From Liolophura sinensis (taxonomy: Eukaryota; Mollusca; Polyplacophora; Chitonida; Chitonidae), in contig NC_088300.1 of NCBI RefSeq assembly GCF_032854445.1, forward strand, positions 6,882,001-6,946,000: a stretch of 64,000 nt of DNA, in the 5' to 3' direction. Made by a program: the position numbers and the translations under genes. The notes beneath the pieces are model-generated. The model did not search any database. It had not been told where the DNA came from and saw only the letters and a list, made by a program, of their open reading frames with translations. Shown here piece by piece: positions 5,626 through 57,425 of the stretch (positions are counted from its first letter, which is position 1; every line of letters begins with the position of its first letter).

Positions 5626-7190
5626 GACACCATACATGTTTCCCCAGGTCACAGTATCTACCGCTACCAACACCATACATGTTCCTCCACGTCACAGTAT
5701 CTATCACTACCAACACCATACATGTTCCCCCAGGTCACAGTATCTATCACTACCAACACCATACATGTTCCCCCAGCTCACAGTATCTACCACTACCAAC
5801 ACCAAACATGTTCCCCCAGCTCACAGTATATACCGCTACCAACACCATACATGTTCCCCCAGTTCACAGTGTATACCGTTACCAACACCCTACATGTCCC
5901 CCCAGGCCACAGTATCTACCCTAATAACACCAAACAAGTTCCCCCAGGTCACAGTATCTACCGTTACTAACACCCTACATGTTCCCCCAGGTCACAGTAT
6001 CTACTGCTACCAAAACCATACATATTCCCCCAGTTCACAGTATCTACTGCTAGCAACACCACACAAGATCCCCCAGGTCACAGTATCCATCGCTATCAAC
6101 ACCACACGTTCCCCCAGGCCATAGTATCTACCACTACCAACACCATACATGTTCCCCCAGGTCACAGTATCTACCGTTACTAACACCCTACATGTTCCCC
6201 CAGGTCACAGTATCTACTGCTACCAAAACCATACATATTCCCCCAGTTCACAGTATCTACTGCTAGCAACACCTCACAAGATCCCCCAGGTCACAGTATC
6301 CATCGCTATCAACACCACACGTTCCCCCAGGCCATAGTATCTACCGCTACCAACACCATACATGTTCCCCCAGGTCACAGTATCTATCACTACAAACACC
6401 CTACATGTTCCCCCAGGTCTCACTATCTACCCTACCAACACCATATATGTTCCCTCAGGTCACAGTATCTACCCCTACCAACACCATACATGCTCCCCCA
6501 GGTCACAGCGTCTATCACTACCAACACCATACATGCTCCCCCAGGTCACAGCGTCTATCACTACCAACACCATACATGTTCCCCCAGGTCACAGTATCTA
6601 CCGCTAGCAACACCATACATGTTCCCCTAGGTCACAGTATCTACCGCTACCAACACCATACATGTTCCCCCAGGTCACAGTATCTACCCCTACCAACACC
6701 ATACATGATCCCTCAGGTCACAGTATCTATCACTACCAACGCCATACATGTTCCCGCAGGTCACAGTATCTATCGCTACCAACACCATACATGTTCCCCC
6801 AGGTCACAGTATCTACCGCTACCAACACTGTACATGTTCCCCCAGCTCACAGCCTCTACGGCTACCAACACCATACATGTTCCCGCAGGTCACAGTATCT
6901 ACCGCTACCAATACCATACATGTTCCCCCACGTCACAGTATCTACCGCTACCAACACTGTACATGTTCCCCCAGCTCACAGCCTCTATGGCTACCAACAC
7001 CATTCATGTTCCCCCAGGTCACAGTATCTATCGCTACCAACACCATACATGTTCCCGCAGGTCACAGTATCTACCGCTACCAACACCATACATGTTCCCC
7101 CAGGTCACAGTATCTACCGCTACCAACACCGTACATGTTCCCCCAGCTCACAGCATCTACAGCTACCAACACCATACATACACCATACAG
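5626..7190. repeat. 43-bp minisatellite, about 36 copies
   Basis: The unit begins CAACACCATACATGTTCCCC and continues CAGGTCACAGTATCTACCGCTAC, 43 bp in all. Because 43 is not a multiple of 3, three units (129 bp) complete a frame cycle, which yields long overlapping ORFs of up to 287 codons in several frames. These are artefacts of the array. A block of about 213 bp (five units) starting near 5961 is repeated almost exactly near 6174, showing segmental duplication within the array. Confidence 0.93.
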
Positions 7191-9409: not shown

Positions 9410-11821
9410 TCACTTGTCATCCGAGCCTGGGGTATTCCCAGTGGGCGGAGTCTCACTAAGCCACTCCTCCTGCAATTTTGCCAGCATTTCAGGAGTCAGC
9501 AAGCCTTGCTTAATCAGCTGATCTGTTAATCGCCCATGGCCTAGGTTGACTTTTCCATTTGCCTTTCCTTGAGCAGTCTCAGACTTTGCCCGCACAAAGT
9601 TTGCTGAAAGTCTTGAGTCAAACGCTGAATCTGCTCTTTCATGTCTGATTTTCTGGGACTTCCTCTCACCAAAATCATCACTCATGTAATTTTTCTGTGC
9701 CATTGCAGATTTGTGAGACCTGCTCTTCATCTCAAACTCATCCTCGTCAGTGGGTGGGGCACTTGAGGTGGGCGTCTCTGTTGCCTTAATGAGTCTAGTG
9801 ATGTTGAATACACCCATCTGTATTATTGAGTCCAGCTCTATCTGCATGTCACGCACCAAACTCACATCTGGAAACATGTCTTGAAAACGATAGCTAAGCC
9901 ACAGGTAGAGGTCAAGGACATCAAAGACACCCTCCAGGTGAACCAGGTCCAGTATAGTTTCAGGTGGTGAGAAGGGCCAAGCAATCTGACGACACAGCCA
10001 ATCTAGTGTGATTGGCTCACTGCGGCTGTACTGACGAGCAAACTTCAGAAACATAGTGCAAACAAATGGCTGTTTCTTGGGAATAGGAGCACAACAGAAT
10101 ACATACCTGGCTCTTAATGCTAAAGGAACATGCTCAATCATATCTGCAAGAAATTTGAAATCATCTACATTACACATGAAGTATTTATCACTGTCCAGTT
10201 GAGACAGTGTGACAAATATGTCAATAAGGTTAGAGAGGGTAGCATTGGGCAGGTGATATGCAAACAGTTCTATTTGCTCTGCCGTTGGATGAAGACCTGC
10301 CTGCTCTATTGTCTCTATCTCTTTCCGACAAATATCCTTTAATAAAGCAAGGTCATCTTTCCTGAATGTGGTTACCTCCCCTTCTTCATGCTCTGTCCCA
10401 AACCTTCCTGCTCTACCTGCAATCTGTAGAGCCTGCGATGTACTGATAACATCCATTTCTTTTTCCCCCTTTTCATTAAGCCTTGGTTTTATCAGTGAGT
10501 AAAATATAATGCGCTTTATAGACAAATTCAGTCCCATACCAATGGCATCTGTTGCCACCATTATTTTACATGAATTTTCCGCATCATTGAACTTTTGTGC
10601 TTGTGCCATTTTTGTACCAGGTGGAAGGCCTCCATAAATAACAGCACATTCCTGGCCTCTTTTCTCAAGTTGCCTGGAAACAGTATAGATATCGTTCTTG
10701 CTAAAACAAACGATACAATCACCACGTGTCACATTATCAAATGACCCAACAGCTTTGTCCAGAAATTTCAGTTTTGTGAGCCGTTTATACTTTCTTATTT
10801 CTACTTCATCGCCTGTCACCATCATCAAATCTTTAACAAGCTGGATGCTTGATGCTTCACCACACACATGGATTTCCTGAGCACAAACTCCAAGTAACGC
10901 TCTTGTCCATGCCCAGCCTCTCTGCGTATCCTTTATCATTTGTATTTCATCAATCACAGCCACCTCATATGGGTTAGTAACACTGGTCATCTCTACAGTA
11001 CAGGCAACATGAGCCGAGGGGTTTCCCTCTGGGTCAGCATATCGTCTTTCCTCTCCAGTTACTAGGTCACACATTGTTCCAGCTGTATTACTCTTCTGAA
11101 ACACTTCCACAGCCAGCATTTTAAGCGGGCCACAGTACACACCTGACTTAGCACTGAACAGTCTCTGAAGGGCATGATACGTCTTCCCACTATTTGTAGG
11201 TCCTGCATGAAAGATGATTTTTCGTTGTATTGCTCTGGCCTCAGGGTACCAGTTTGCAGGAAGTCTCAAGTCACTTATTTTTTTTAAGTCTTCCATACAC
11301 TCTAAATGCGGAAAAATCTCTTTTGCATGTCGCAAGAAATAAGGAAAAATATCATCAGTATGCCCTGCCTCTTGTAAGATATCACTGAGGACAACATGAA
11401 GATCAACAGGCAAATTTTCCGACTCAACACAAAACCGCCTGAAGCTGATATAAGCTTGATGAAACAGTTTGTTGTCCAGACCACTTTCGGCTGACAGCCG
11501 CTTGATCTCCGGCCTTCTGTAAAACTGATTTAACAATTTCAGTAAGTCTTCTTTTTTGAGAGAGCCGGTTAACTCTGCCCCAACATTTATGTCATCTGGG
11601 TTGTTGGGAGGTTTGACGTACACTGGCTGTACCAAGGAGCTGATATCTTTGCCCTTTCCATCCGACTTGTTGCGTCGGGCAGAAGTAATAACGCCAAACA
11701 ATGTTTCATTAGGCGTTGTTGTTGTTCTCCAACACGTTGTCGGGGTAGGGAACATTTGTCTGCCTCTGAATCCCGATCGACAGGATGGCAGCACGAATGA
11801 TCTCAACAGCCTGTGGCCCAT
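9410..11821 (-). CDS. SUPV3L1: ATP-dependent RNA/DNA helicase SUPV3L1, mitochondrial (intronless)
   Basis: A single uninterrupted ORF of 803 codons that aligns along its length with vertebrate SUPV3L1 (human about 786 aa). This Ski2-like DExH helicase unwinds RNA in the mitochondrial matrix and forms the mitochondrial degradosome with PNPase. I chose the ATG at 11821 because the frame upstream of it starts only at a TTG. The N-terminus is rich in Arg and Ser/Thr and poor in acidic residues, as expected of a mitochondrial targeting peptide. Visible motifs: Walker A GPTNSGKT (about residues 207-214), DEIQ box (about 291-294), [20 protein letters not shown] (about 423-432) and [10 protein letters not shown] (about 466-475). 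The C-terminal part keeps the [16 protein letters not shown] and LYLWLSYRF blocks and ends with the family-like [19 protein letters not shown]. The gene stands head to head with INTS7. The lack of introns is odd next to a 20-exon neighbour. Confidence 0.97.
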
Positions 11822-12168
11822 CTTGATGTTGCAGCTATTCACCAAAGGAAAACCTCACTAAACACCATGCAACCACTGAAATTCTACACACACATTCTCT
11901 AGAAGGAGTCATACATGGGCGCTGCCATTTTGAAGCTCAAAGGTGTGCACAAATTAAGAAAATGCGAAAATGCCATTTGGTTAATTCAAATCAGTATGCT
12001 ATTTCTCATTTCTTTTCTTCTTCAGATGAATATATATTGTCTTTTTAACTTTGAAAATAGGCTGATAAAGTGGCATATTGTTTTTCAAAAGCTTTCACTT
12101 CCCTGAAATAGTTTGTTTCTCGTTTATTTTTGTATTCGTGAATTTAAATGTTTCCAGCTTCAGTAAAG
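11822..12168. promoter_or_regulatory. Divergent SUPV3L1/INTS7 promoter interval with paired YY1/TISU-like elements
   Basis: Only 347 bp separate the two start codons, so a shared bidirectional promoter is likely. The 17-bp sequence AAAATGGCAGCGCCCAT (minus strand, about 11915-11931) and AAGATGGCGGCGCCCAT (plus strand, 12167-12183) match at 15 of 17 positions and point away from each other. Both fit the YY1 core (AANATGGCNGC). The plus copy covers the INTS7 start codon and matches 11 of 12 positions of the TISU consensus SAASATGGCGGC. No TATA box at a convincing position. Confidence 0.6.
11899..11928 (-). other. Nine-codon uORF upstream of SUPV3L1
   Basis: On the minus strand an ATG at 11928 opens MAAPMYDSF and stops at TAG (11899-11901), 77 nt before the helicase ATG. 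Its start lies in an AAAATGGCAGCGCCCAT element nearly identical to the INTS7 start region. Whether it is transcribed is unknown. Confidence 0.45.
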
Positions 12169-15100: not shown

Positions 15101-18100
15101 AAAGGAATGTGTGGATGTTGAAATTTTACAGATCTAATTTGCTATCACTCTCATTGTCTGGGGGGCCTTAGTTGCAGTAAACGGGCGATGAAGCTCGTGT
15201 GGCAGTTTGCACAGTCTAACCTTCATTGAAGACCACATGTAATCCACCAGTATGGTGAGCATATCTGTTTAGCAGTTGTGGGAAGGTATGTCAGTAAACT
15301 GTATCAGTATGTCAGGTTCCAGTGCCATAATATATAGAGCCAGTTAGTTCTGGAAAGTGTTTGGGCTCACAAACTAGTCGGCGTCCAATCTAATCATGCT
15401 GTAAAACTAACAAATAAATTCAACAAAATATGATGGTTTACCAGTGAAGTTTTCATGCCAGTTTCTTTCATTCACAGACTTAAAATATCTCAGTAAGCAT
15501 CAATTACAGTTGCATTATAAACAAATTTCTTTACGCATGATCACAATATCACTTTTAAAGTTTGGGATCAGAAGTCCTCTTGAGTATGAGGTGAAGCAAC
15601 AATGAAATAAAAAGCATAATCAGATATTTTTGTTTTTTGCTCTTCAGTAATAATTTTATCCGACTGTGTATTCTGAAAGTGGTGCAGCAAACTGAGAAGC
15701 ACCATGACAAAGTCCTCAATGTTGAAGATTTCCTGAGGCGTATCTTTGCAGTTATACACAGCAATGACCCTGTTGCCAGGGCAATCACTCTACGGTAAGC
15801 CGTCAAAAATATGACCTGTACACACATTAGCTTACAGCTCAATAACTGAGTATTTTCTATTTTCAATTCAAGTATGAAAAGGCTTTATTTTATGTTTTAT
15901 AGTAATATGGGTGCTTGAAATATAGATGTAAGATTCAAAATTTATAAGTTCAAAAAATTTATCCTCTGAATAATTTTGCAATTTTTATAAAAAAAAAACT
16001 ATCAAATATTTTATGAATACTAGTTTCATCCAGTTATATATGTACCTTTCCGTGGGATCTATTGAGCACATACTCCAAAATTAAAGCTGTAAAATTTCTT
16101 GTTTCTCCAGGACCTTGGGAAGTATTGCCAACATGATCCGAGAGAAGAAAATTATCCATCACAGTATTGTTGTTGCCTTAGATTCTCATGACAATGTGGA
16201 AGTCGAGGCGGCCATATTTGCCGCTGAACGTTTTGCAGACAAATCAAAGTATGTACAGTGTGACTGGAATTATTTGCTGACTTCCAAGCTCAACATTTTT
16301 TGACAAAGAATAAATTGGTCTGGCAACTCAGGAAACTCAGGAAAAGAATTCTTAGTGAGAAATTAAGTATGCATTCCATTTGTAATCAAAACCAGATATA
16401 CAAGTGTACAACATAAAATACCAATCAGATAAAAAAATGAAATAAGAAAGAATCAGATCCCATGATGATGCCAAACATCTGTTTCACAGCCCTTGGTATT
16501 CGTACATAGTTTGTATGTAATGAGATTTATGTTTGTGTGTTAACTCCGACCTGTTGATGTGTTGAATATTTATACATATATACTGCTTTCAGAACATTTG
16601 CAGCAAATAACTGCGAAAAGCTGTCCAGATGATTGAAAGTATAACCACCCCTGCTGACAGGAAACTAAAACTCATACCCATAATGCAACACATGTATCAT
16701 GATGCGAGTACGGCATCAAAGGTGAATATTTCTTTTACTTAAAAGACATGGCTGAAATACTGCTGAAATCTGGCATTAAAACCCCAATCATTCTTTTACT
16801 TTAAAACTGCATCAGAGATGATTCATTCCATTTATGTCGTATCAAACACCAATAACACTATTTGGTTACAGAAGCCATTTTGAAATTACAGATAAATATT
16901 CTTTTTTCTGTTTTCCCTTATATTAAAGTAAATTTAATTATAAAAAATTATAAAATTTAATTATTTTGAATATTAAATTAAGATTTATGGTTTGAACATT
17001 TTAAGCCACAGTTTGGACTTACTATAATTGTTTGAAATTATACTTACCTCTTGTTTATCATGTCATTAGCAGTATTCTTTTCTGTATTCAGGCTCGTGAA
17101 GTGTGTAAATCATTACTACCAAAGTACCCCACAAAGCAGTTTGTTACGGTTATTCTGCACACAATGTCACAGCTGACAGCACGCTCCTTGATGGACATTC
17201 CACAACAGGTTACCTTCCTTTGTTTTCTTTATGTCTACGCTGCACTTACTCCATACCCTGAAGTAACAGAGATTTCAGAATCTCTATTGAACTGTGCTTT
17301 GGGTGGGCATTACTGTAAATAAAGTCGGAATTGACTGAATATTCAGCATCACACTCATGTGGATGACTCACTACTCAGCATCACACTCATGCGGATGACT
17401 CACTACTCATCGTCACACTCACATGGATGACTCACTACTCAGCATCACACTCATGTGGATGACTCACTACTCAGCATCACACTCGTGTGGGTGACTGACT
17501 ATTCAGCATCACACTCATGTGGATGACTGACTATTGAGCATCGCACTCTTGTGGATGACTGAATATTGAGCATCACACTCATGTGGATGACTGAATATTC
17601 AGCATCACACTCACATGGATGACTCACTACTCAGCGTCACACTCATGTGGATGACTGAATATTCAGCATCACACTCACATGGATGACTCACTACTCAGCG
17701 TCACACTCATGTGGATGACTGAATATTCAGCATCACACTCACATGGATGACTCACTACTCAGCGTCACACTCATGTGGATGGCTCACTACTCAGCGTCAC
17801 ACTCATGTGGATGACTGAATATTCAGCATCACACTCACATGGATGACTCACTACTCAGCGTCACACTCATGTGGATGACTCACTGCTCCGCATCGCATTC
17901 ATGTGGATAACTGAATATTCAGCACTCATGTGGATAAAATTGGAATTGGTATTCAAAGTAAGTCTCCATGTAAGTTGCTAGCCATCATCTATGTTCCCAT
18001 TTTAACTGGAAAACATGTGAAAAAATTTCTGATGGTCTGGAAGCATACTTGTCCTACTTGTATACTTGTTTAACCAAGAGAGAGTTTAAAGCTTACAGTT

Positions 18101-21100
18101 TAAGAGCAACTTCAGGTCTTATTTTCAGTGATAAAAGATAAGACTTTCATGACCTTTTCAGCGTACATTTCTGACCCATAGGTGGAGCTGTTAACAAGTT
18201 ACCTTGAGAGCGACCCTAGACGACAGGTCAAGATGATAGCATTGTCTGATCTGTGCATGTTGGCACGTATCGCTCCTCATTTGTGGAAGGTGGACACAGT
18301 AGAGGTAAGGATAGCTGCGGTGACAGGGAAATGGGGTACCTGCTTCTGTGTAATGGAGACTTGTCAAGCCGGATTGTCCATTATCTCTGTGTAATACATG
18401 AGTTCAACATTACCAGTTTGTCCATTATATCTGTGTAATAAATGAGTTCTAGATTACCAGTTTGTCCATTATCTCTGTGTAATACATGAGTTCTACGTTA
18501 CCAGTTTGTCCATTATCTCTGTGTAATACATGAGTTCTACATTACCAGTTTGTCCATTATCTCTGTGTAATACATGAGTTCAACATTACCAGTTTGTCCA
18601 TTATCTCTGTGTAATACATGAGTGCTACATTACCAGTTTGTCCATTATCTCTGTAATACATGAGTGCTACATTACTAGTTTGTCCATTATCTCTGTGTAA
18701 TACATGAGTGCTACATTACCAGTTAATCCATTATCTCTGTGTAATGCATGAGTTCAACATTACAAGTTTGTCCATTATCTCTGTGTAATACATGAGTTCT
18801 ACATTAGCAGTTTGTCCATTATCTCTGTGTAATACATGAGTTCAACATGACCAGTTTGCCCACAAAATGAGCAGGACAGGAGAGCTGGGACCCAAAAAAG
18901 ATTATGCAAGGAAAGTTCCATAATGGCGATTTGCTTTTTATGGCTAAAACACTCTCGGGGTATTGAGCGCTTTGTGTTTACAGGTGTTGTGTAGGTTTGT
19001 CCCAAAGGTGATCTTCCCTGGTCTGGTGTGGGGGGTCCTCAGGGTACTGACCACATTGTCTTTGTTTTCAGGTTTTGTGTAGGTTTGCCATGAAGGTGAC
19101 CTTCCCTGGACTGGAGTGGGGGGGTCCTCACGGTAGTGACCACATTGTCTTTGTTTACAGGTGTTGTGTAGGTTTGCCATGAAGGTGACCTTCCCTGGAC
19201 TGGCGTGGGGGGTCCTCAGGGTAGTGACCACATTGTCTTTGTTTACAGGTGTTGTGTAGGTTTGCCATGAAAGTGACCTTCCCTGGACTGGCGTGGGGGG
19301 GTCCTCAGGGTACTGACCACATTGTCTTTGTTTACAGGTGTTGTGTAGGTTTGCCATGAAGGTGACCTTCCCTGGTCTGGTGTGGAGGGGCCCTCAGGGT
19401 AGTGATCACATTGTCTTTGTTTACAGGTGTTGTGTAGGTTTGCCATGAAGGTGACCTTCCCTGGTCTGGTGTGGGGGGTCCTCAGGGTAGTGACCACATT
19501 GTCTTTGTTTACAGGTGTTGTGTAGGTTTGCCATGAAGGGGACCTTCCCTGGTCTGGCGTGGGGGTCCTCAGGGTACTGACCACATCGTCTTCGTTTACA
19601 GGTGTTATGTAGGTTTGCCATGAAGGTGACATTCCCTGGTCTGGTGTGGGGGATCCTCAGGGTTCTGACCACCCTGTCTTCATCCCTGGCTGTCAATCTA
19701 TTCTCCTTGTCTCCAGGTGAGTTGTTCAAAGTATCAGCAAGTAAGGTTTGAGTTTAATCCAGGTAATATATCTATATAACAAAAAAAAAAAGTTGATATG
19801 GCACTTTGGCTCATGTTTGTGATTATAAGTGTAAATAAAAAGTAAATTAAAATTAAACTATTTGGTGTGCAATTTTAAATGTTGTTTATACTCACAATTC
19901 ACAGTCAGTAGCAAAATTGATTTCATTTTATTGAAGATACTACCATATAGATCAAACTCTTTGATATTTTACTCCTGTAACACAAAGAACATCTGTCAAA
20001 TACAAACAAATCATCTTAGCTCAATAGGCAATGTTCTGACACTAAAACAACTGCTGCGTTTGACTTTTCCTTTAGCATCACGTAGGACAACTTTGTGCAT
20101 ATGAAATTACATGTACATGAACTCACATGATATCTGTAGGCCTTTGACAATGAAACTGAACACCTGCGATATTTGTGTGTTGTGTTGTGTATGTACATCT
20201 GTATGTATGTCCATATAACATTAGGTCTCATTAATACAGAAGAAACAGTGTGTGTATTCCAAGGACGTATTAGGAATTGTAGTGACTGGGACCTTGGTTG
20301 TGTTTTGATACATGTATCTCTGTAATTACAGGTTCCCTGGGGTTGGAAGTCTGCCAGCGTTACTGTTACCATGCCGACACGTCTTTAGCTGTGAAAGCTG
20401 TAGAGCTACTCACTGACCTTGCTCTGGCTGGATACAACAGTAAGAGAAAATGGAAATGAATACTTGTAGCAGTGTTCACAGTCACAACATGACAGCCATC
20501 ATCAGCAAGATGAAAGTCTTAGCTGTGTGTGTTATTCTGGTCATCAGATGTATATAGAAGTTTAGGCTCTGTGTGTTATTGTGTTAATGAGATGTATGTC
20601 TTTGTTACCTGTGTGTGTTGTTGTGGTAATCAGATGTACGTGAAAGTGTTAGATATGTGTGTTATTGTGGTAATTAGATGTAGGTGAAAGCCTTGGCTGT
20701 GTGTGTTATTGTGGTAATCAGATGTACATGAAAGTGTTAGATATGTGTGTTATTGTGGTAATCAGATGTAGGTGAAAGCCTTGGCTGTGTGTGTTATTGT
20801 GGTAATCAGATGTACATGAAAGTGTTAGATATGTGTGTTATTGTGGTAATCAGATGTAGGTGAAAGTCTAGGCTGTGTGTGTTATTGTGGTAATCAGATG
20901 TAGGTGAAAGTCTAGGCTGTGTGTGTTATTGTGGTAATCAGATGTAGGTGAAAGTCTAGGCTGTGTGTGTTATTGTGGTAATCAGATGTAGGTGAAAGTC
21001 TAGGCTGTGTGTGTTATTGTGGTAATAAGATGTACATGAAAGTGTTAGATATGTGTGTTATTGTGGTAACCAGATGTAGGTGAAAGTCTAGGCTGTGTGT

Positions 21101-24100
21101 GTTATTGTGGTAATCAGATGTAGGTGAAAGCCTTGGCTGTGCGTGTTATTGTGGTAATCAGATGTACATGAAAGTGTTAGATATGTGTGTTATTGTGGTA
21201 ATCAGATGTAGGTGAAAGTCTAGGCTGTGTGTGTTATTGTGGTAATCAGATGTACATGAAAGTGTTAGATATGTGTGTTATTGTGGTAATCAGATGTAGG
21301 TGAAAGTCTAGGCTGTGTGTGTTATTGTAGTAATTAGATGTACATGAAAGTGTTAGATATGTGTGTTATTGTGATAATCATATGACTATGTTACAGAAGG
21401 AGGTGCAGGCCTGGTGGAGCAGACGGTGTCAGCCATACAGACTCTACTACGACTCTCCACACTACAGCCTGCATTCAGCAAGGATTACACCAATGTCAAG
21501 GTAACCATCTTGTCCATCATCTTCATGTATGCACATTCCAGTCAAAAGCTGTAGTCTTAGTCAGAACCTCAATGACATTCAGTAAAGGAGATAAAAACTT
21601 AATAATTCACAGAAACTTCACATTTGCCCAGAAAATTCGCCAACAAAAGGGCATTCTAAGAGGCAAATAAAGTGTTAGTTTTGGTCCTAACTTTATTATA
21701 CATTTTTTCAGTACAATATCTTCCTGACTTCAAGTTAAACCTTAGAATTAATTTTGTTTAGATCTTTGAAGAATCTGGAAAAATGAATAACTTTATGGTC
21801 ATGGATCTAATTTTAACTCCGTTACAGTTAGCATGCTCATGTAAGTGGAGAAAGAGGAAGTCAGATTTATATTTATACTTATATATTTACATGTGCCTGG
21901 ATCTATTATTTGACAGCTTGTGTTGAAGTGCGCAGTAAGGATTTGTTGCCACATTCCATCAGCCTGTTCTGTGTGTGTAGAGACCTTGGCAGATCTCCTC
22001 CTCAGTGTCTCAGGTCAGTGTGTAAGGAGAATGTAAAGACTTGTAGCCACATTCAATCAGCCTGTGCAGTTTGTGTAGAGACCATGGCAGATCTTCTCCT
22101 CAGTGTCTCAGGTCAGTGTGTAAGGAGAATGTAAAGACTTGTAGCCACATTCCATCAGCCTGTTCTGTGTGTGTAGCGACCATGGCAGATCTCCTCCTCA
22201 GTGTCTCAGGTCAGTGTGTAAGGAGAATGTAAAGACTTGTAGCCACATTCCATCAGCCTGTTCTGTGTGTGTAGAGACCATGGCAGATCTCCTCCTCAGT
22301 GTCTCATGTCAGTGTGTAAGGAGAACTTGTGTGAGTTAGGGAAGGGATTCTGTCCTGCCTGAGTGATTGGAGGTCATCTGTCCGAAATTGGGCAAGCAGT
22401 TTAAGTGTAGAGTTTAGTAGGTGAGTTACAGTGAGTAAGCATGTGTCACATTCACAAAACTTTGTAAGTCAGTTTTTCAAAACTTTTCTCTGAAGTAACA
22501 TCATATTACCCTAATTCTGCTAATTTTTGAGACCATATTAGAAGTGTTGAAAGTAGAATATTACATTTCTTAAACCAGCCTTTTGGAAAAGTAAAAGTGT
22601 GAGTATGTTGTTCATGAGATGGTCTAACCATGTGAGAAAAAAGAAACTCAATATTCCTGCTAAAGTTACATATGTACTGGTTAAAATCAGCAGATCAGGC
22701 ATCCCAAACCTAATAAGAAATAAGGGAGCTATGTAAAGCTTAACAATCAGTAGAGCAACTCAGTAAAACAAGAAAATAATGCATCAAAACCTTTCTGCTG
22801 TCAGTCAGGCTACAAGCTGTATTAATTAATGTGTTATTTATGAAATGAATAGTTACATTTCAGTCTTTATAGCACAAAATGATGTGTGTATGTATACACA
22901 CATGTTCAAATGTAGTGTACATGGTAAGAAGTGTTTTGTGTGTACATCTACGTGTACATACACGTTGGTACACCTATGGTCTGAGGTACTATTCTGGCTC
23001 TGATCATGCAGGAGCTGGTTTGTTGAAACCACCATGCCCTTAAAGCCACATGCTTGATGCCAGCTTTGGCTGTTTGGGCTGTGGCTAGATTGTCAGGTAT
23101 CTTCCAAAGGTTGGTGGTTTTTCCTGAGATAAACCTGACCACCATTGTATGAGGGGAAAATTCTTACGGTGAACACCAATCAAATAAATAAATAAATATA
23201 CGTAAATAAGTGCGCATTACTGCTTATACTTGATTCCGTGCATTGATGTTCCTGTAATGTCCGTTCCATATCTGTGTGTGTTTCCTACAGGTCACCTCTC
23301 AGAGCTTCTGTCTGAAGGCTTGGCGGCTATAGGCGACCAAGACGGAGACTCATTACTGAGGGTAGTCCCTGTCCTTACTGACTGCTTAAGGAATGCCCTG
23401 CTGGTAAACGACGCTGAAACGAGCAAAAATCTGGTATGACTAGCGCTTAAGTAGCTTGTGAATTGAGTAAATTAATTGGTGCAACATGTACATAGACTAA
23501 CTGAAAACATGCAGCAGTACTAACCCAAATGCTTGGCTTTGGAATTAATCATATAATAAAATTTTTTTATTGTTCATGAAATGGTAAAACACATACACTA
23601 AAGCTAATAAGGATACTTGTCCATGGATTATGAAGTACATGTAATCTGGCAATGCAGGCACAGGGAAAAAACAACCATAACCCTTTAACTGTGTGGCTCA
23701 TTGTAAAAGCACTCCTAAAATCACCAAGCATATATAAGTATGTGTATACAGATATATATATATATCGGTTTAGGAGACATTTTGGTATTCACAAGAAGTA
23801 ATGTGTTAAGTATGGATTGTGTGGAGAGAAACTAGGCTGAAGGTGAGTTATACTGACCACAGTGTTATCCTGTCTAGAGATTGCTTCAGTTCACCCACAT
23901 TAAGTATGAATGAATGAATGAATGAAACCTTTATTTAAAGAGTGTAGCTCTGTCAAATTTAACAGTTTGCTCTTCCCAGAGGCCCTCTACAACAATACAT
24001 GTCAGCGCCCTAATGTAAAACTGTTTTTATAGTGGTTAGAGTTACGTTTATCAATGTGAAGGTTGTTAACATTTGATAGAAGAAACTTATTGTTCACTGT

Positions 24101-27100
24101 ATGAAGTTTCAGTGATGTTGGGTCAACACCTGTGGGGATGATATGAAAGTGATGCAGCCAGATAACTACTCAAAGGTCATTCAGATGACCAAGATATAAT
24201 CTTGTTCCATCTGGGAGTCCTAGTATGATGTCTGTATTGTCATATAGTTACCCAGCCGGTCAGTTCAACCAGAGCAGTCGGCTACCTTCATAACATCTCT
24301 GTGGTTATAACTACAGATAATGAATTTCACAAAACAGCATTTGCGTATAACTCAATAACGAGGCCATTCCTGCCGTAACACTCGACACGAGTCACAAACT
24401 TGACACAAATGAAAGGTAAAATCTCAAGTGTGCTTAATCTGTGCAAAATTGTAAGACGAGCTCTCAAGATCAGGCACAAGCCAATCACGACCCACTTGAA
24501 TGCGGATAACAGGTCAAACCACCCCTCTAACCCAGTGTCCAAGCTCCATACGCCGCAACTAAACATAAATAGCTTCATCTTTACCGGAATGAAAACAACT
24601 ACAAATGAAAACCTGCTAACTTGAGACCTATCAATAACTAAAACCATCACACCAGCAGTTTTTTAATGCGTTCACTTTTAATTAAATGACAAAAATAAAT
24701 AAAAACCAAAACAAAAGAAAAAGTAAAATATACAACTGTCACATTTGTAGTACAGTATAAAAGGGAGATAACTCAGTAACATATTGTCTAACAGATGAAG
24801 TTCACTTAGGATAAGCTTACTGCTCGACATGTTCAACAACTATTATAAATTAACACGAACATGACAATGGCAATATATTAATCTTTGTTACATTGTTTTC
24901 TCTGTACCTTAATTGTTGTCACAGATTTGTCTCTGTACACTGATCTTTGTTACAGGTTTGCTTGTGCACATTAATCTTCCAAGCCTCCTCGAGTCATTCC
25001 ATTCCCACTGACCTTCGTCACCTTTTGCTCAACACTACAAAATCTACTAATGGCTGGGAAAGTTACAAAATAGGCAGGCAAGCCATGAGATATGGGCAGT
25101 ATTGGATTGCCAAAGAAGTCTTCAAATCTTTAAAAAAACAGGTGAAAATGGGCTCAGCTTACGTTTGGAAGTTTTCGTCTTTTTTTTTTTATGAAACCTT
25201 GATAAGAGTACATGTATTTTGCACAGCATAACCAAATATTGTAATTTTTCTTTTCATTTAATGAATACAATATTTGCTGACACATAAAAATTCAATATAT
25301 TCTCACTGGAGCTTTTGTAGTACATTGTTTGCCATTCCTCCTGATCAGGTGTCCACAGAACACCTTTACTTCTGGCTGAATGGACTAGAACACCTCTGTG
25401 CAGGAGAAGAGAGCCTTAGTGCAATGGAGAATGACGCCGGTAACATGATAGAGAAAATCACCCACGCTGTGGAGAATTACCACAGAGGTGTCACCTCTCT
25501 GAAGGTACAGTATTTTACCCTCAAATCAAAAACAAAAAGTAACTCTGATGAAATTCATTTTGATAATATCAATATTTCATGTTTAGTAAAAAAGTCATTA
25601 TACAATAATGTGTTGTGGATCATGTTGATTACCAACTCTTTGTCAGATTGTGTTAACTTGAGGATCCAAGTGGTTTCAGTTTATTTGTTAATATGCAGAA
25701 TACATGTAGTTATAGAAGACTAAAACCACAGAGAAAATCCTATAGTATGAAGCAATTCTCTTATTCTTTATACAAAATATCAAATGTACACTGCTCCAGA
25801 GAAGACAAGTCTATCTTTTACCATGCAGCTGTCGAGTATCTGCCTTTTTTGTCACAGGTCAGTGTTCAGTCCTGAACAGGGTGAAAGGTGAAATTTTGAA
25901 AACTGTGGGTTTTGTACATTCTCTTTTAAATAATGGTACCAGTATATTATGACTCAGTTTGGACCATATTATGACTCAGTTTGGACCATATTATGTCTGG
26001 GCTTATGCACCATCTTTGACATACTAAAATGGTTTAGTATGTTATGTCATGGATACATGGTACATGGAATATGGAAGTATTCACCAAAGTTTGCATATTT
26101 TCTTATCCTTCATTTTTCAGGCTGCTGCGACTCCGAGCTTCCCGCTGCTTTTTCAGAGTGGCTATGCCCACACGCGTGCTCAGATGCTTCAGGTGTTTAC
26201 ACAAGTTCTGCAGACATGTAATACCTTCCGCAGCTGTCCTCCCCCTGCTATAGCAACGGCTCTGGCAATCACTAATGGTCAGGAGGTCAGCCGCTGTGGT
26301 CAGCTCATTAGTCAGGTGAGAGGTAAAGGGGTGAAGGTCATACCTCAACTTAACTCATCACTGGCCAGTGTGGTCTGATCAGGTGATAGGTCAGGGGTTG
26401 AAGGTCATACCTCCAGTTAGCAGGCCACTGGTCATTTTGGTTGTATCAGTCAGGCAAGAGGTCAGGAAGTGAAGGTTACACCTCAAATCAACCGGTTACG
26501 GACCATTTTGGTTAGATCCTCTGTCAGGGGGTAAAGGTCATATCATAAGTTAGCAGGTCAAGGTCACTGGCTGAAGTATAGAACAAGGTCCTAGGTCATC
26601 CTCAATGAGTATGCAGTCATGTGTGGCAAAACAATTTGTTGCTGAACAAGTATGACATACAGGATAGTACTTTTGGTATTAAAAAGGCCTTTGGAACTGT
26701 GTCATTGACATATTTTTATGTTGAAACCAGTATTGGTAAGAATTGAAAAGATTAGCCAAGCCATTTGATTAAGGTTTTGTGTCTAAAGCCAAAGATTTCC
26801 CAACAGGATTTTCTTCACTGGAATGATCATAGACATGGTTTGTGTTGTTGCAGTTACACAAATGTGCATGTGAGTTTGGAGCGCTGAGCCAGAAGTTTGC
26901 TGTTCTTTATCACCAGTCATTTGATGCTGACCTGATCTCCCTCTACAACGTCAAGCTGTATCCTGTACATGTCCACATTAAGAGCAACAGCGTTGTATTA
27001 CTGAAACCATCTGATTGAAGAGGGCCCTCATGGCCAAGGGGGTTAGCACACCAGCCCGGCACAATGACCCAGGACCCTCCCACCAGTGGTATCACTGTGA

Positions 27101-30100
27101 GTTCAAGTCCAGCTCATTTTGGTTTCCTCTCAGAAAAGGCCTGCCAGCAACTTGCAATTGGTTGTTGGTTTCACCCAGGTTCCCTGCAACCATAATGCTG
27201 ACCGCTGTTGTATAAGTGAAATATTCTTGAGTAGGACGGAAAACACCAATCAAATAAATAAATGAGATCGTTTTATTAATATTCAAAGCAAACTCTGCTT
27301 AACATCAAAAAAGTACAGATTAATGAACTGATTTTCTTAAATCTGTCAAAACTTTATTTTGTTTGCCCAGCATTTAACAAAACCGGGCATGTTTTACATG
27401 TCATTAATTCTTTTAAATATGCATAAAGAAAGGAGACATAGAAAGCAGTAAATGCATCTAACCCTTGACCTTTGACCCAGATTACAAGAAACTTGTGATG
27501 TTCTTAACATGGCTATATTGTCTGTGCTACAAAATTCTCTGACAAGGTAAGCAAGAGCTCTGCCCTGTTTCTTCGCTCCATAATGCTTGTCGCCGTTTAA
27601 TACAGCATAAAACTCCAAATAAATAAATTAATCAAACAAGCTGTCCAGATAACATAACATCCCGAAACATACACTATGTCTGTGGTCAGAAATCGAACAA
27701 AACTCACATTAGATGGCATTAATTTGGGTGGAAATATAGAAAAAAAAGTTTTTTGGATTGTTTTTATTCTGTTTTTTCCATTGGTCAAGTCACTGATTTG
27801 CTCTTGGTTATGCAAGCTCCGAGATATACACATAACTACATGTAGGCTGATATTCGTGACATATGTTGATAAACTTGAGCAATTTGATCAACCAAATTGC
27901 AATTTCTGCAATTGATTTTTGTCAAATGAGTGAAAAATTCTTGAACCTTACATAAAATGCCAGTCAGTTAAGTAAATATGTACCGTTTGTTGATTTATGT
28001 GTTTATTGAATTTATCGTGGATTGGTGTATTGCAGACAGAGTATGTTCCTGATGGGCTTGGATGGTGCTAAGCGGAGAGCCTACAGTGGTTACACAGACG
28101 TACTCCGACAGATTCCCACAGCTGTTTCTGCCATTCTCACTGATGATTCTAATGGACCTCTCACTTATATTGTTAGAGTCTTTATTTTTTTGGTCGTTTT
28201 GTGACTGATTTGGTAGACAGTTGTCAACTACAAAAGCAACTGTATGTATGTAGCTGTATTAAGGAACTAGAAGTGAGCACAATGTAAGGATTCCTACACA
28301 GTGCTGTTGCAGTCCTATCACAGACGTGAAAACCTGAATAACCAGTGCGCTCCTTATAAGTGGTAGTTAGCTACTGTAGCTTCTCATTTATTTGTACCAC
28401 TCGGTAATTGGACATAGCTGTGGTAAGTGAACTGAGCCATGGTAATTGGACTGAGCCATGGTAAGTGGACTGAGCCCTGGTAAGTGGACATAGCTATGGT
28501 AAGTGAACTGAGCCATGGTAATTGGACATAGCTATGGTAAGTGTACTGAGCCATGAAAATTGGACTGAGCCATGGTAAGTGGACTGAGCCATGGTAAGTG
28601 GACTGAGCCATGGTAAGTGGACTGAGCCATGGTAAGTGGACATAGCTATGGTAAGTGAACTGAGCCATGGTAATTGGACATAGCTATGGTAAGTGAACTG
28701 AGCCATGGTAATTGGACTGAGCCATGGTAAGTGGACTGAGCCATGGTAAGTGGACTGAGCCATGGTAAGTGGACTGGGCCATGGTAAGTGGATTAGAAAT
28801 CATTCCAGATATAAACCTCAGAAGTGAAAACATGAGGGGTTTCTTCACAACAAACTTGCTTTCTTGACATTATGATGCAGTGTTTATTCATTTACTGATA
28901 TGTGCATTATGTTTGTTCGGGTTTTTTTCAAGATGTACAACTTCTAATCTTATACATTTCTTTGCTCAGCACATCGAGACTCTGACGGAAGCCATTTACA
29001 ACCTGATCTCAGCATCTCTTGGATTCCCAAGATATTTCTTCCAGAGCCTACAGTCCACAAGCATTAAGGTAATCCTTTTACATTCATATGTTAAAGTAAA
29101 TGGCTGTGTTTAATACAGCATGGCAAAATCAGAATACCTAGAGAGATTTTGGATATGTTTGTAGTTCAGATTTTTTTTCATTTTTAAGTAATTATTTTTG
29201 ATAGCCAAGGAAAACTAACTGACTTTTTCCGAACAGACTGATGCCTTGATAAACAGATTTACTTCTGGATGCTATTGTTAGCATATGAATATTATAATAT
29301 CATGAAATTGCTTGCTATAAAGTGGTGATATTTTTCATACAGTTGGCAATATCTCCCCAACCTCGATCTCTGTCGGAGCCGGTGATGCTGTCACATGATA
29401 CTCACCTGACCCTGAAGGTGGAAGGAATCATCCAGCATGGCAAACGGCCGGGGCTGTACCGTAGCGTCCACGCTGTCAGGGTCAGTGTGACCTCTAACCT
29501 TCAGGCTCGCAGTCAGATGACACAGGAGAGCAAGGTGAGTGTAGACATTCAGTGTACAGGGAGAAAGCTGTAAAACAAATGTTTCGTTCTTAAATCATCC
29601 AGTTTGACTCGAGGTGAAGTGTAACCTTAAAATAACAATCAAAACATATGGTCTAAGGCTGCATCAAAGAACTGTTGTATTAGTGAACAAGACATGTGGA
29701 ACCCACATTGTAATTTTCCACTTTACATTGGCCAGTAATGGGAAAGAGAGTACACCTCACAAGCATGCGACCCAATACATGATCCACCATGACCACCTAT
29801 TCTCAGTCTGCCCAATGATCCTTTAATTGGAGAGGTTAAACCCTTTTACCTTGCTCATTTCAATGCACATTTCACCTTCCCATAATGTTTAGTCTAGCTA
29901 GTGTTAGGAGCAACTACTAGATATGTATTTAGGGAGATGGCCCAGAGCCCTGTATCACCAAAACTGAAATTGGTCAGATACTGGCAAATACAAAATGGTG
30001 GTGTCACTCTTTGTGGAGTGTCCTGTCTGGTGTATAGGACTTCTGACTGATATTGTGGTGTCAGAATGGCTGAATGGGTGTCATGTCTATTGTCAGGGAG

Positions 30101-55705: not shown

Positions 55706-55889
55706 GTAAACATGATAGATAAGACTAGGCTCGCCATACACGGCAGTTCATTTTGTACATAAGCCATATAAGGCGCAACAATAAAGTCGTCATGACTCCA
55801 TGTTGTAACAAACATTCATTCTTGCATGGAGCCAGAAATGGAATATATTCATGCAGTTTGCACAGTAAACATTTTTTTATACATTGTTA

Positions 55890-57425
55890 CATTCTGCTGG
55901 TGGACTAAGCACCCTGGAGGCCTTGTCACATTCTGCTGTTGGATTAAGCATCCTGGAAGTCTGGTCACATTCTGCTGGTGGACTAAGCATCCTGGAGGCC
56001 TGGTCACATTCTGCTGGTGGACTGAGCATCCTGGAGGCCTGGTCACATTCTGCTGGTGGACTGAGCATCCTGGAGGCCTGGTCACATTCTGCTGGTGGAC
56101 TGAGCATCCTGGAGGCCTGGTCACATTCTGCTGTTAGACTGAGCATCCTGGAGGCCTGGTCACATTCTGCGGGTGGACTGAGCATCCTGGAGGCCTGGTC
56201 ACATTCTTCTGGTGGACTGAGCACCGTGGAGGCCTGGTCACATTCTGCTGGTGGACTGAGCATCCTGGAGGCCTGGTCACATCCTGCTGGTGGACTGAGC
56301 ATCCTGGAGGCTTCGTCACATTCTGCTGTTGGACTGAAATCCTGGAGGCCTGGCCACATTCTGCTGGTGGACTGAGCATCCTGGAGGCCTCGTCACATTC
56401 TTCTGGTGGACTGAGCATCCTGGAGGCCTGGTCACATTCTGCGGGTGGACTGAGCATCCTGGAGGCCTGGTCATATTCTGCTGTTAGACTGAGCATCCTG
56501 GAGGCCTGGTCACATTTTGCTGGTGGACTGAGCATCCTCGAAACCTGGTCACATTCTGCTAGTGGACTGAGCATCCTGGAGGCCTGGTCACATTCTGCTG
56601 GTGGACTGAGCATCCTGGAGACCTGGTCACATTCTTCTGGTGGACTGAGCATCCTGGAGGCCTGGTCACATTCTGCTGGTGGATTAAGCATCCTGGAGGC
56701 CTTGTCACATTCTGCTGTTAGACTAAGCATCCTGGACGCCTGGTCACATTCTGCTGTTAGACTAAGCATCCCCGAGGCCTGGTCACATTCCGCTCGTGGA
56801 TTAAGCACCCTGGAGGCCTGGTCACATTCTGCTGGTGGACTGAGCATTCTGGAGGCCTGGTCATATTCTGCTGGTGGACTGAGCATCCTGGAGGCCTGGC
56901 CACATTCTGCTGGTGGACTGAGCATCCTGGAGGCCTGGTCACATTCTGCTGTTGGACTGAGCATTCTGGAGGCCTGGTCACATTCTGCTGGTGGACTGAG
57001 CATCCTGGAGGCCTGGTCACATTCTGCTGGTGCACTGAGCACCCTGGAGGCCTGGTCACATTCTTCTGGTGGACTGAGCATCCTGGAGGCCTGGTCACAT
57101 TCTTCTGGTGGACTGAGCATCCTGGAGGCCTGGTCACATTCTGCTGGTGGACTGAGCATCCTGGAGGCCTGGTCACATTCTGCTGGTGGACTGAGCATCC
57201 TGGAGGCCTGGTCACATTCTTCTGGTGGACTGAGCACCGTGGAGGCCTGGTCACATTCTGCTGGTGAACTGAGCATCCTGGAGGCCTGGTCACATTCTTC
57301 TGTTGGACTGAGCATCCTGGAGGCCTGGTCACATTCTGTTGGTGGACTGAGCATCCTGGAGGCCTGGTCACATTCTGCGGGTGAACTGAACACATTCTTC
57401 TGGTGGACTGAGCATCCTGGAGGCT
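55890..57425. repeat. 39-bp minisatellite, about 39 copies, with an inverted partial copy downstream
   Basis: The unit is GGTGGACTGAGCATCCTGGA plus GGCCTGGTCACATTCTGCT. Since 39 is a multiple of 3 and the unit lacks stops in several frames, ORFs of up to 419 codons appear on both strands (for example a 13-residue repeat ASRMLSPPAECDQ on the minus strand). I treat them as by-products of the array: no start context, splice partner or domain. An exact 21-bp inverted piece of the unit lies at 57486-57506. Confidence 0.93.

Follow-up and report, generated by a model that had tools for sequence, protein, structure and literature searches.

Results

Within the window, the 64 kb stretch of DNA that was analysed, lie a homologue of INTS7 on the forward strand and, divergent from it, the gene for the mitochondrial helicase SUPV3L1 (9410-11845, minus strand), a single open frame of 811 aa with Suv3 and helicase domains in Pfam. 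Nine other open reading frames (of 63) were compared with Pfam, giving one sub-threshold hit each in two and nothing in seven. The identity of the INTS7 gene, which the original prediction had proposed from the sequence, was borne out by joining and translating exons 6 to most of 15: the resulting 420 aa align in two stretches with PDB chains of Integrator complex subunit 7 (E 7.8e-68), and exon 8 lies inside the first, ungapped over its first 30 residues. Exon limits outside the PDB-matched part were read from the sequence by hand, and the donors assigned to exons 15 and 17 are uncertain. Translation and the PDB alignment place exon 7 at 18182-18304 (+ strand), ending in phase 0 with the donor GAG|GTAAGGAT (U1 duplex -10.1 kcal/mol). 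After an intron 7 of about 1.3 kb, exon 8 (19602-19716, + strand, 115 nt) runs from phase 0 to phase 1 and ends with the donor CAG|GTGAGTTG, which at -12.2 kcal/mol ranks second strongest among 19 modelled INTS7 donors by U1 pairing. Exon 5 (16593-16721) shows an apparent one-base frame break inside the exon, which is either an assembly error or a real lesion.

Directly upstream of exon 8, at 18984-19601, stand seven tandem units of 87-89 bp, and tandem repeat analysis (TRF) reports the array as 8.0 copies of an 89-bp unit with 92% matches (18975-19680). Each unit joins a copy of exon 8 positions 1 to about 79 to some 9 nt from the end of the intron, this intronic part being TGTTTACAG in all but unit 1, which ends with TGTTTTCAG instead. 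Self-BLAST aligns exon 8 positions 1-79 or 1-80 with all seven units at 85-91% identity, and the acceptor ends CAG|GT at each of the eight tandem positions. The array is thus real and placed as predicted, with every one of the eight acceptors where it had been located. The units, all on the + strand, are unit 1 (18984-19071, 88 bp), which follows the native intron end and its acceptor at 18983; unit 2 (19072-19160, 89 bp), which starts GTTTTG rather than GTGTTG; units 3 (19161-19248, 88 bp), 4 (19249-19337, 89 bp) and 5 (19338-19426, 89 bp); unit 6 (19427-19514, 88 bp), whose exonic part is identical to the unit consensus; and unit 7 (19515-19601, 87 bp), which contains the acceptor of exon 8 and, before it, a TACTGAC resembling a branch point. 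A VLCRFAMK-type coding start had been predicted for every copy; it is present in units 2-7 and exon 8, but unit 1 reads VLCRFVPK. Pairwise identity among the inner units 2-6 is 92-98%, while unit 1 is 87-92% and unit 7 is 88-93% identical to the other units. Over 89 nt, a span that includes the non-repeated 3' end, the exon 8 copy shares 78-83% identity with the units, compared with the 85-91% found over the shared 79-80 nt. Further upstream in intron 7, TRF also finds a 44-bp minisatellite of 11.2 copies (18374-18862, + strand).

The differences in unit length are all located in a single G-run of the alignment. Because exon 5 shows an apparent frame break, small base errors in the assembly are possible, and these matter here because the unit lengths differ only in this run. 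As assembled, the array totals 618 bp and is a multiple of three, as the original prediction had pointed out; when each G-run was taken as assembled, one base shorter or one base longer, however, only 729 of 2187 combinations were divisible by three. This divisibility matters little, because no upstream acceptor gives an open read-through. A transcript spliced to an upstream acceptor and read on to the donor of exon 8 meets a premature stop in all seven cases, and none of 3279 combinations of varied G-runs (as assembled, one shorter, one longer) is open. The stop had been predicted to be an in-frame TAG, which holds for acceptors 1, 3 and 6; for acceptors 2, 4, 5 and 7 it is TGA. Under the usual rule for nonsense-mediated decay, a stop 50-55 nt upstream suffices. 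The stops lie 139-637 nt upstream of the exon 8 donor as assembled (96-675 nt across the G-run combinations), and the assembled distances are therefore far enough for decay by this rule.

The pattern of substitutions bears on which copy is coding. Compared with the consensus of units 1-7, exon 8 carries five synonymous and two non-synonymous differences, or five and one when position 64, which varies within the array, is set aside. By contrast, a hand tally of the distinct changes of the units' own, also without position 64, gives three synonymous and 12 non-synonymous, where about 28% synonymous would be expected without constraint. The two sets of counts differ (Fisher p 0.014), on a hand tally of few changes. 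Since exon 8 differs mainly synonymously and the units mainly non-synonymously, the last copy looks like the translated one, and these small numbers fit a picture in which constraint acts on a single coding copy and the seven upstream units drift freely like non-coding DNA.

A second boundary array, overlooked in the original prediction, lies at exon 11 and is the mirror image of the first, in that the donor side is repeated. TRF and self-BLAST place four copies of 98 bp, each comprising the 3' end of exon 11 and its donor, at 21935-22325 (+ strand). Exon 11 itself (21917-22013, + strand, 97 nt; translation, PDB alignment and self-BLAST) contributes its last 79 nt as the exonic part. The donors at 22013, 22111 and 22209 read CAG|GTCAGT and form a U1 duplex of -9.9 kcal/mol, compared with -3.3 kcal/mol for the fourth, CAT|GTCAGT, at 22307. 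Use of any of the three distal donors would bring in a premature stop 117 nt into the exon. When the 20 modelled INTS7 exons and the SUPV3L1 open reading frame were searched against the window by self-BLAST, exons 8 and 11 were the only ones with extra copies, in each case of about 79 exonic nt.

We scored acceptors with a position-weight matrix trained on the 18 other INTS7 acceptors. Scores range from 7.1 to 7.8 for the seven decoys, compared with 4.6 for the true exon 8 acceptor; the training acceptors, each left out in turn, span -5.8 to 6.2, and 99% of 747 background AGs score 6.1 or less. Because the decoys outscore the true site, a choice of the nearest acceptor must beat stronger upstream sites, and the higher decoy scores are evidence against a trivial choice of the last acceptor. 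About 21 nt before acceptors 2-5, 7 and 8, the copied exon provides TACTGAC or TAGTGAC, with TAGTGAT before acceptor 6. Judged against the branch-point consensus, TACTGAC and TAGTGAC make a plausible candidate branch point. On the donor side, CAG|GTGTTG begins six of the seven upstream units and forms a U1 duplex of -7.4 kcal/mol, stronger than 10 of the 19 modelled INTS7 donors, and 2.3% of 875 background GTs reach -7; the start of unit 2, CAG|GTTTTG, is weaker at -5.9. Joining to exon 7 would regenerate the donor GAG|GTGTTG, which pairs at only -6.0 kcal/mol (unit 2: -4.5), as opposed to -12.2 for the donor of exon 8.

Discussion

Tandem duplications that span an exon-intron boundary have been described in amphioxus as mirages, which are minisatellite-like and are known from Adh3 and the globins BflGb6 and BflGb9 (PMC3087553). 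According to that account, mirages occur at the 5' or the 3' boundary and retain AG/GT in many copies, and their inner copies are homogenised while the cluster boundaries are not, as is also seen in BflGb6 (PMC3087553). We compared the INTS7 arrays (18975-19680 and 21935-22325) with three structural features of mirages and found all of them. Like mirages, they are boundary-spanning tandem duplications; they keep AG/GT in many copies, with CAG|GT at eight of eight sites at exon 8 and at three of four at exon 11; and at exon 8 homogenisation is stronger among the inner copies than at the edges. They thus fit an already described class. INTS7 differs in combining an acceptor-side and a donor-side array in one gene, though lancelet PGBD5 likewise carries two sets of splice-site repeats, in a report that cites troponin C as well (PMC3902484). 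The copy number of the BflGb6 mirage differed between two haplotypes, and RT-PCR of Adh3 and the globins suggests that regular splicing is undisturbed by mirages (PMC3087553); regular splicing and length instability are reported for amphioxus, whereas the likeness drawn here for INTS7 is one of DNA structure. In the portions of the literature on minisatellites or tandem repeats at exon-intron boundaries that we consulted, the term mirage is applied to amphioxus only, which does not imply that such arrays are absent elsewhere. A literature search for a duplicated splice acceptor returned no match.

We therefore regard the exon 8 array, with good confidence, as a boundary-spanning minisatellite of the mirage kind that is tolerated rather than selected as a poison device, and the repeats are probably tolerated by splicing rather than acting as a regulatory switch. 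In the history that this structure suggests, a segment reaching from about 9 bp before the end of intron 7 to 79 bp into exon 8 would have been duplicated in tandem, and the duplicate would then have expanded and been homogenised to seven extra copies. However far an array on the acceptor side expanded, its last copy would always remain a complete exon next to an unaltered donor. Exon definition would then pair the strong donor at 19716 with the nearest acceptor at 19601 and yield normal mRNA, while the upstream copies would act as decoys inside the intron. If splicing now and then chose an upstream acceptor, the mRNA would contain a premature stop and presumably be degraded. The same reasoning would apply to exon 11 in mirror image, with the single acceptor pairing with the nearest of three good donors. 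Since the copy encoding the right protein adjoins the nearest partner splice site in both arrays, the shortest exon would win and the duplication would be tolerated; at exon 8, tolerance would rest on the last acceptor adjoining the exon's strong donor. The array would then be mainly neutral baggage that taxes splicing and is able to lengthen or shorten.

The original prediction had instead seen in the exon 8 array a poison-exon device; if selected as such, it would tune INTS7 through nonsense-mediated decay by regulated use of the upstream acceptors. The coding logic of the prediction holds, as premature stops follow from all seven upstream acceptors in all 3279 G-run combinations and the true acceptor is outscored by the decoys, but duplicated units whose length is not divisible by three readily yield stops and nothing shows selection as a device. 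The second boundary array and the many intronic minisatellites of the window point to a mutational habit, and the units show no visible coding constraint; we consider a selected device very unlikely. A less improbable but still unlikely reading treats the array as a series of dual-specific (AG|GT) sites that work like the rungs of a ladder. With GT as the first two letters of exon 8, each unit runs from GT to AG, and a transcript spliced to an upstream acceptor might be repaired by removing the remaining units as introns of about 88 nt, or splicing might step recursively from acceptor to acceptor, so that the array would heal itself. The sites allow this, as CAG|GT stands at all eight acceptors, six of the seven upstream unit starts pair with U1 better than 10 of 19 modelled donors, and three of the four boundaries at exon 11 are likewise AG|GT, scoring well as donors and fairly as acceptors. 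In the human UBC gene, a tandem array of dual-specific sites removes whole units (PMC10809524). The INTS7 exon 8 array resembles it in having AG|GT at every unit junction, at eight of eight, so that a unit could be intron or exon; the UBC units, however, are described as 228 nt long, coding and in frame (PMC10809524), whereas those of INTS7 are 87-89 nt and cause stops, all seven unit-retaining forms failing to keep the frame and only the last copy looking coding. The units also resemble Drosophila ratchet points (PMC8605326) in their juxtaposed acceptor and donor (AG|GT), but differ in regenerating a weak donor and in lying within an intron of only about 1.3 kb. A ratchet point would call for a regenerated donor that equals or exceeds the donor of the exon in strength, and the duplex energies at exon 8 run the other way. 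Although some weak regenerated donors are used in Drosophila nonetheless, weakening one in vivo shifted splicing to the stronger exon donor (PMC8605326). The start of unit 2 is weaker still, and introns of 88 nt may be short for this animal. With GT and AG at the unit ends, unit-by-unit removal is possible but looks weak, and the weak regenerated donor speaks against efficient recursive stepping. Extended to both arrays, the proposal would give INTS7 two self-healing ladders, one of seven GT...AG units ahead of exon 8 and one behind exon 11 with two intact units (the third ends in AT rather than AG), where a wrong choice of site would be put right by splicing out, as tiny introns, the units still left; this, too, we hold to be improbable. 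Were it true, boundary minisatellites would be tolerated, and able to grow, only at AG|GT exon junctions, which would give a testable rule for the sites at which new introns originate.

Some of the copies might instead be nascent exons, spliced in as 24-nt (VLCRFAMK) or 60-nt in-frame mini-exons in an early stage of intron or exon gain. The internal donor AAG|GTGACC, at -6.6, equals the modelled exon 1 donor AAG|GTGACACC (-6.6) in U1 pairing, and in units 3 and 6 a second such donor, AGG|GTAGTG (-7.3), stands at a distance of 60 nt from the acceptor. A microexon donor had been predicted in each copy; AAG|GT is indeed found in five of the seven upstream units, but it is AAA|GT in unit 4, and the GT is missing from unit 7, so that the 24-nt form is weakened or lost in two of seven. 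These donors are moderate, the longer form is 61 nt and out of frame in units 2, 4 and 5, and no coding constraint is seen in the units. A potato gene has gained an intron from a duplicated intron end and exon start, with a donor recruited from the exon (PMC4974935). INTS7 resembles this case of intron gain by the Rogers model, in the RdRp gene, in that the duplicated intron end and exon start bring ready splice signals; the potato event is, however, described as a single duplication (PMC4974935), whereas INTS7 carries a multi-copy array in which any new intron would be a potential one. In human duplicated genes, new introns have been linked to tandem repeats (PMC2812944). We judge nascent exons to be highly improbable, and give still less credence to an assembly artefact, by false repeat expansion or merged haplotypes. 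The apparent frame break in exon 5 hints at possible small base errors, the lengths of the G-runs vary in single-base steps, and the published BflGb6 mirage appears to be aberrantly assembled in the draft genome (PMC3087553). The unit differences, however, include substitutions and go beyond homopolymer length, and because of these substitutions the units look like separate copies; the copy number alone is uncertain and may be off.

If the arrays are tolerated minisatellites of the mirage kind, they are natural experiments in splice-site choice, in which eight near-identical acceptors, or three to four donors, compete within one gene and the cell has to settle on one of them. The presence of an acceptor-side and a donor-side array in a single housekeeping gene would make the exon-definition rule that the shortest exon wins directly testable, and the tandem-duplication route to new introns as well. 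If the host is not a lancelet, the phenomenon would be broader than the cephalochordate mirages that we consulted.

Other features of the window

Minisatellite density is high across the whole window, with 38 TRF rows, some of them overlapping, and at least eight arrays inside INTS7. We examined AGGT in 20 arrays merged by hand from these rows, with about eight short rows omitted; in five of the 20, half or more of the copies contain AGGT, compared with about 2.8 such arrays expected, which is not a convincing excess. A 43-bp array of 36 copies at 5627-7179 contains AGGT 23 times on the + strand (CCCCCAGGTCACAG in its consensus). The donor modelled for exon 17 is poor, and downstream of that exon a 19-bp array (28403-28792) holds 15 exact copies of the strong donor-like GGTAAGTG. 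The window gave no Rfam match at gathering score and no tRNA gene in a tRNA scan. SINE-like copies with a CCAATCAAATAAATAAAT tail, which may be of lophotrochozoan type, lie at about 23020-23210 and 27010-27275. Finally, a 39-bp array of 38 copies at 55889-57389 has long open frames on both strands.
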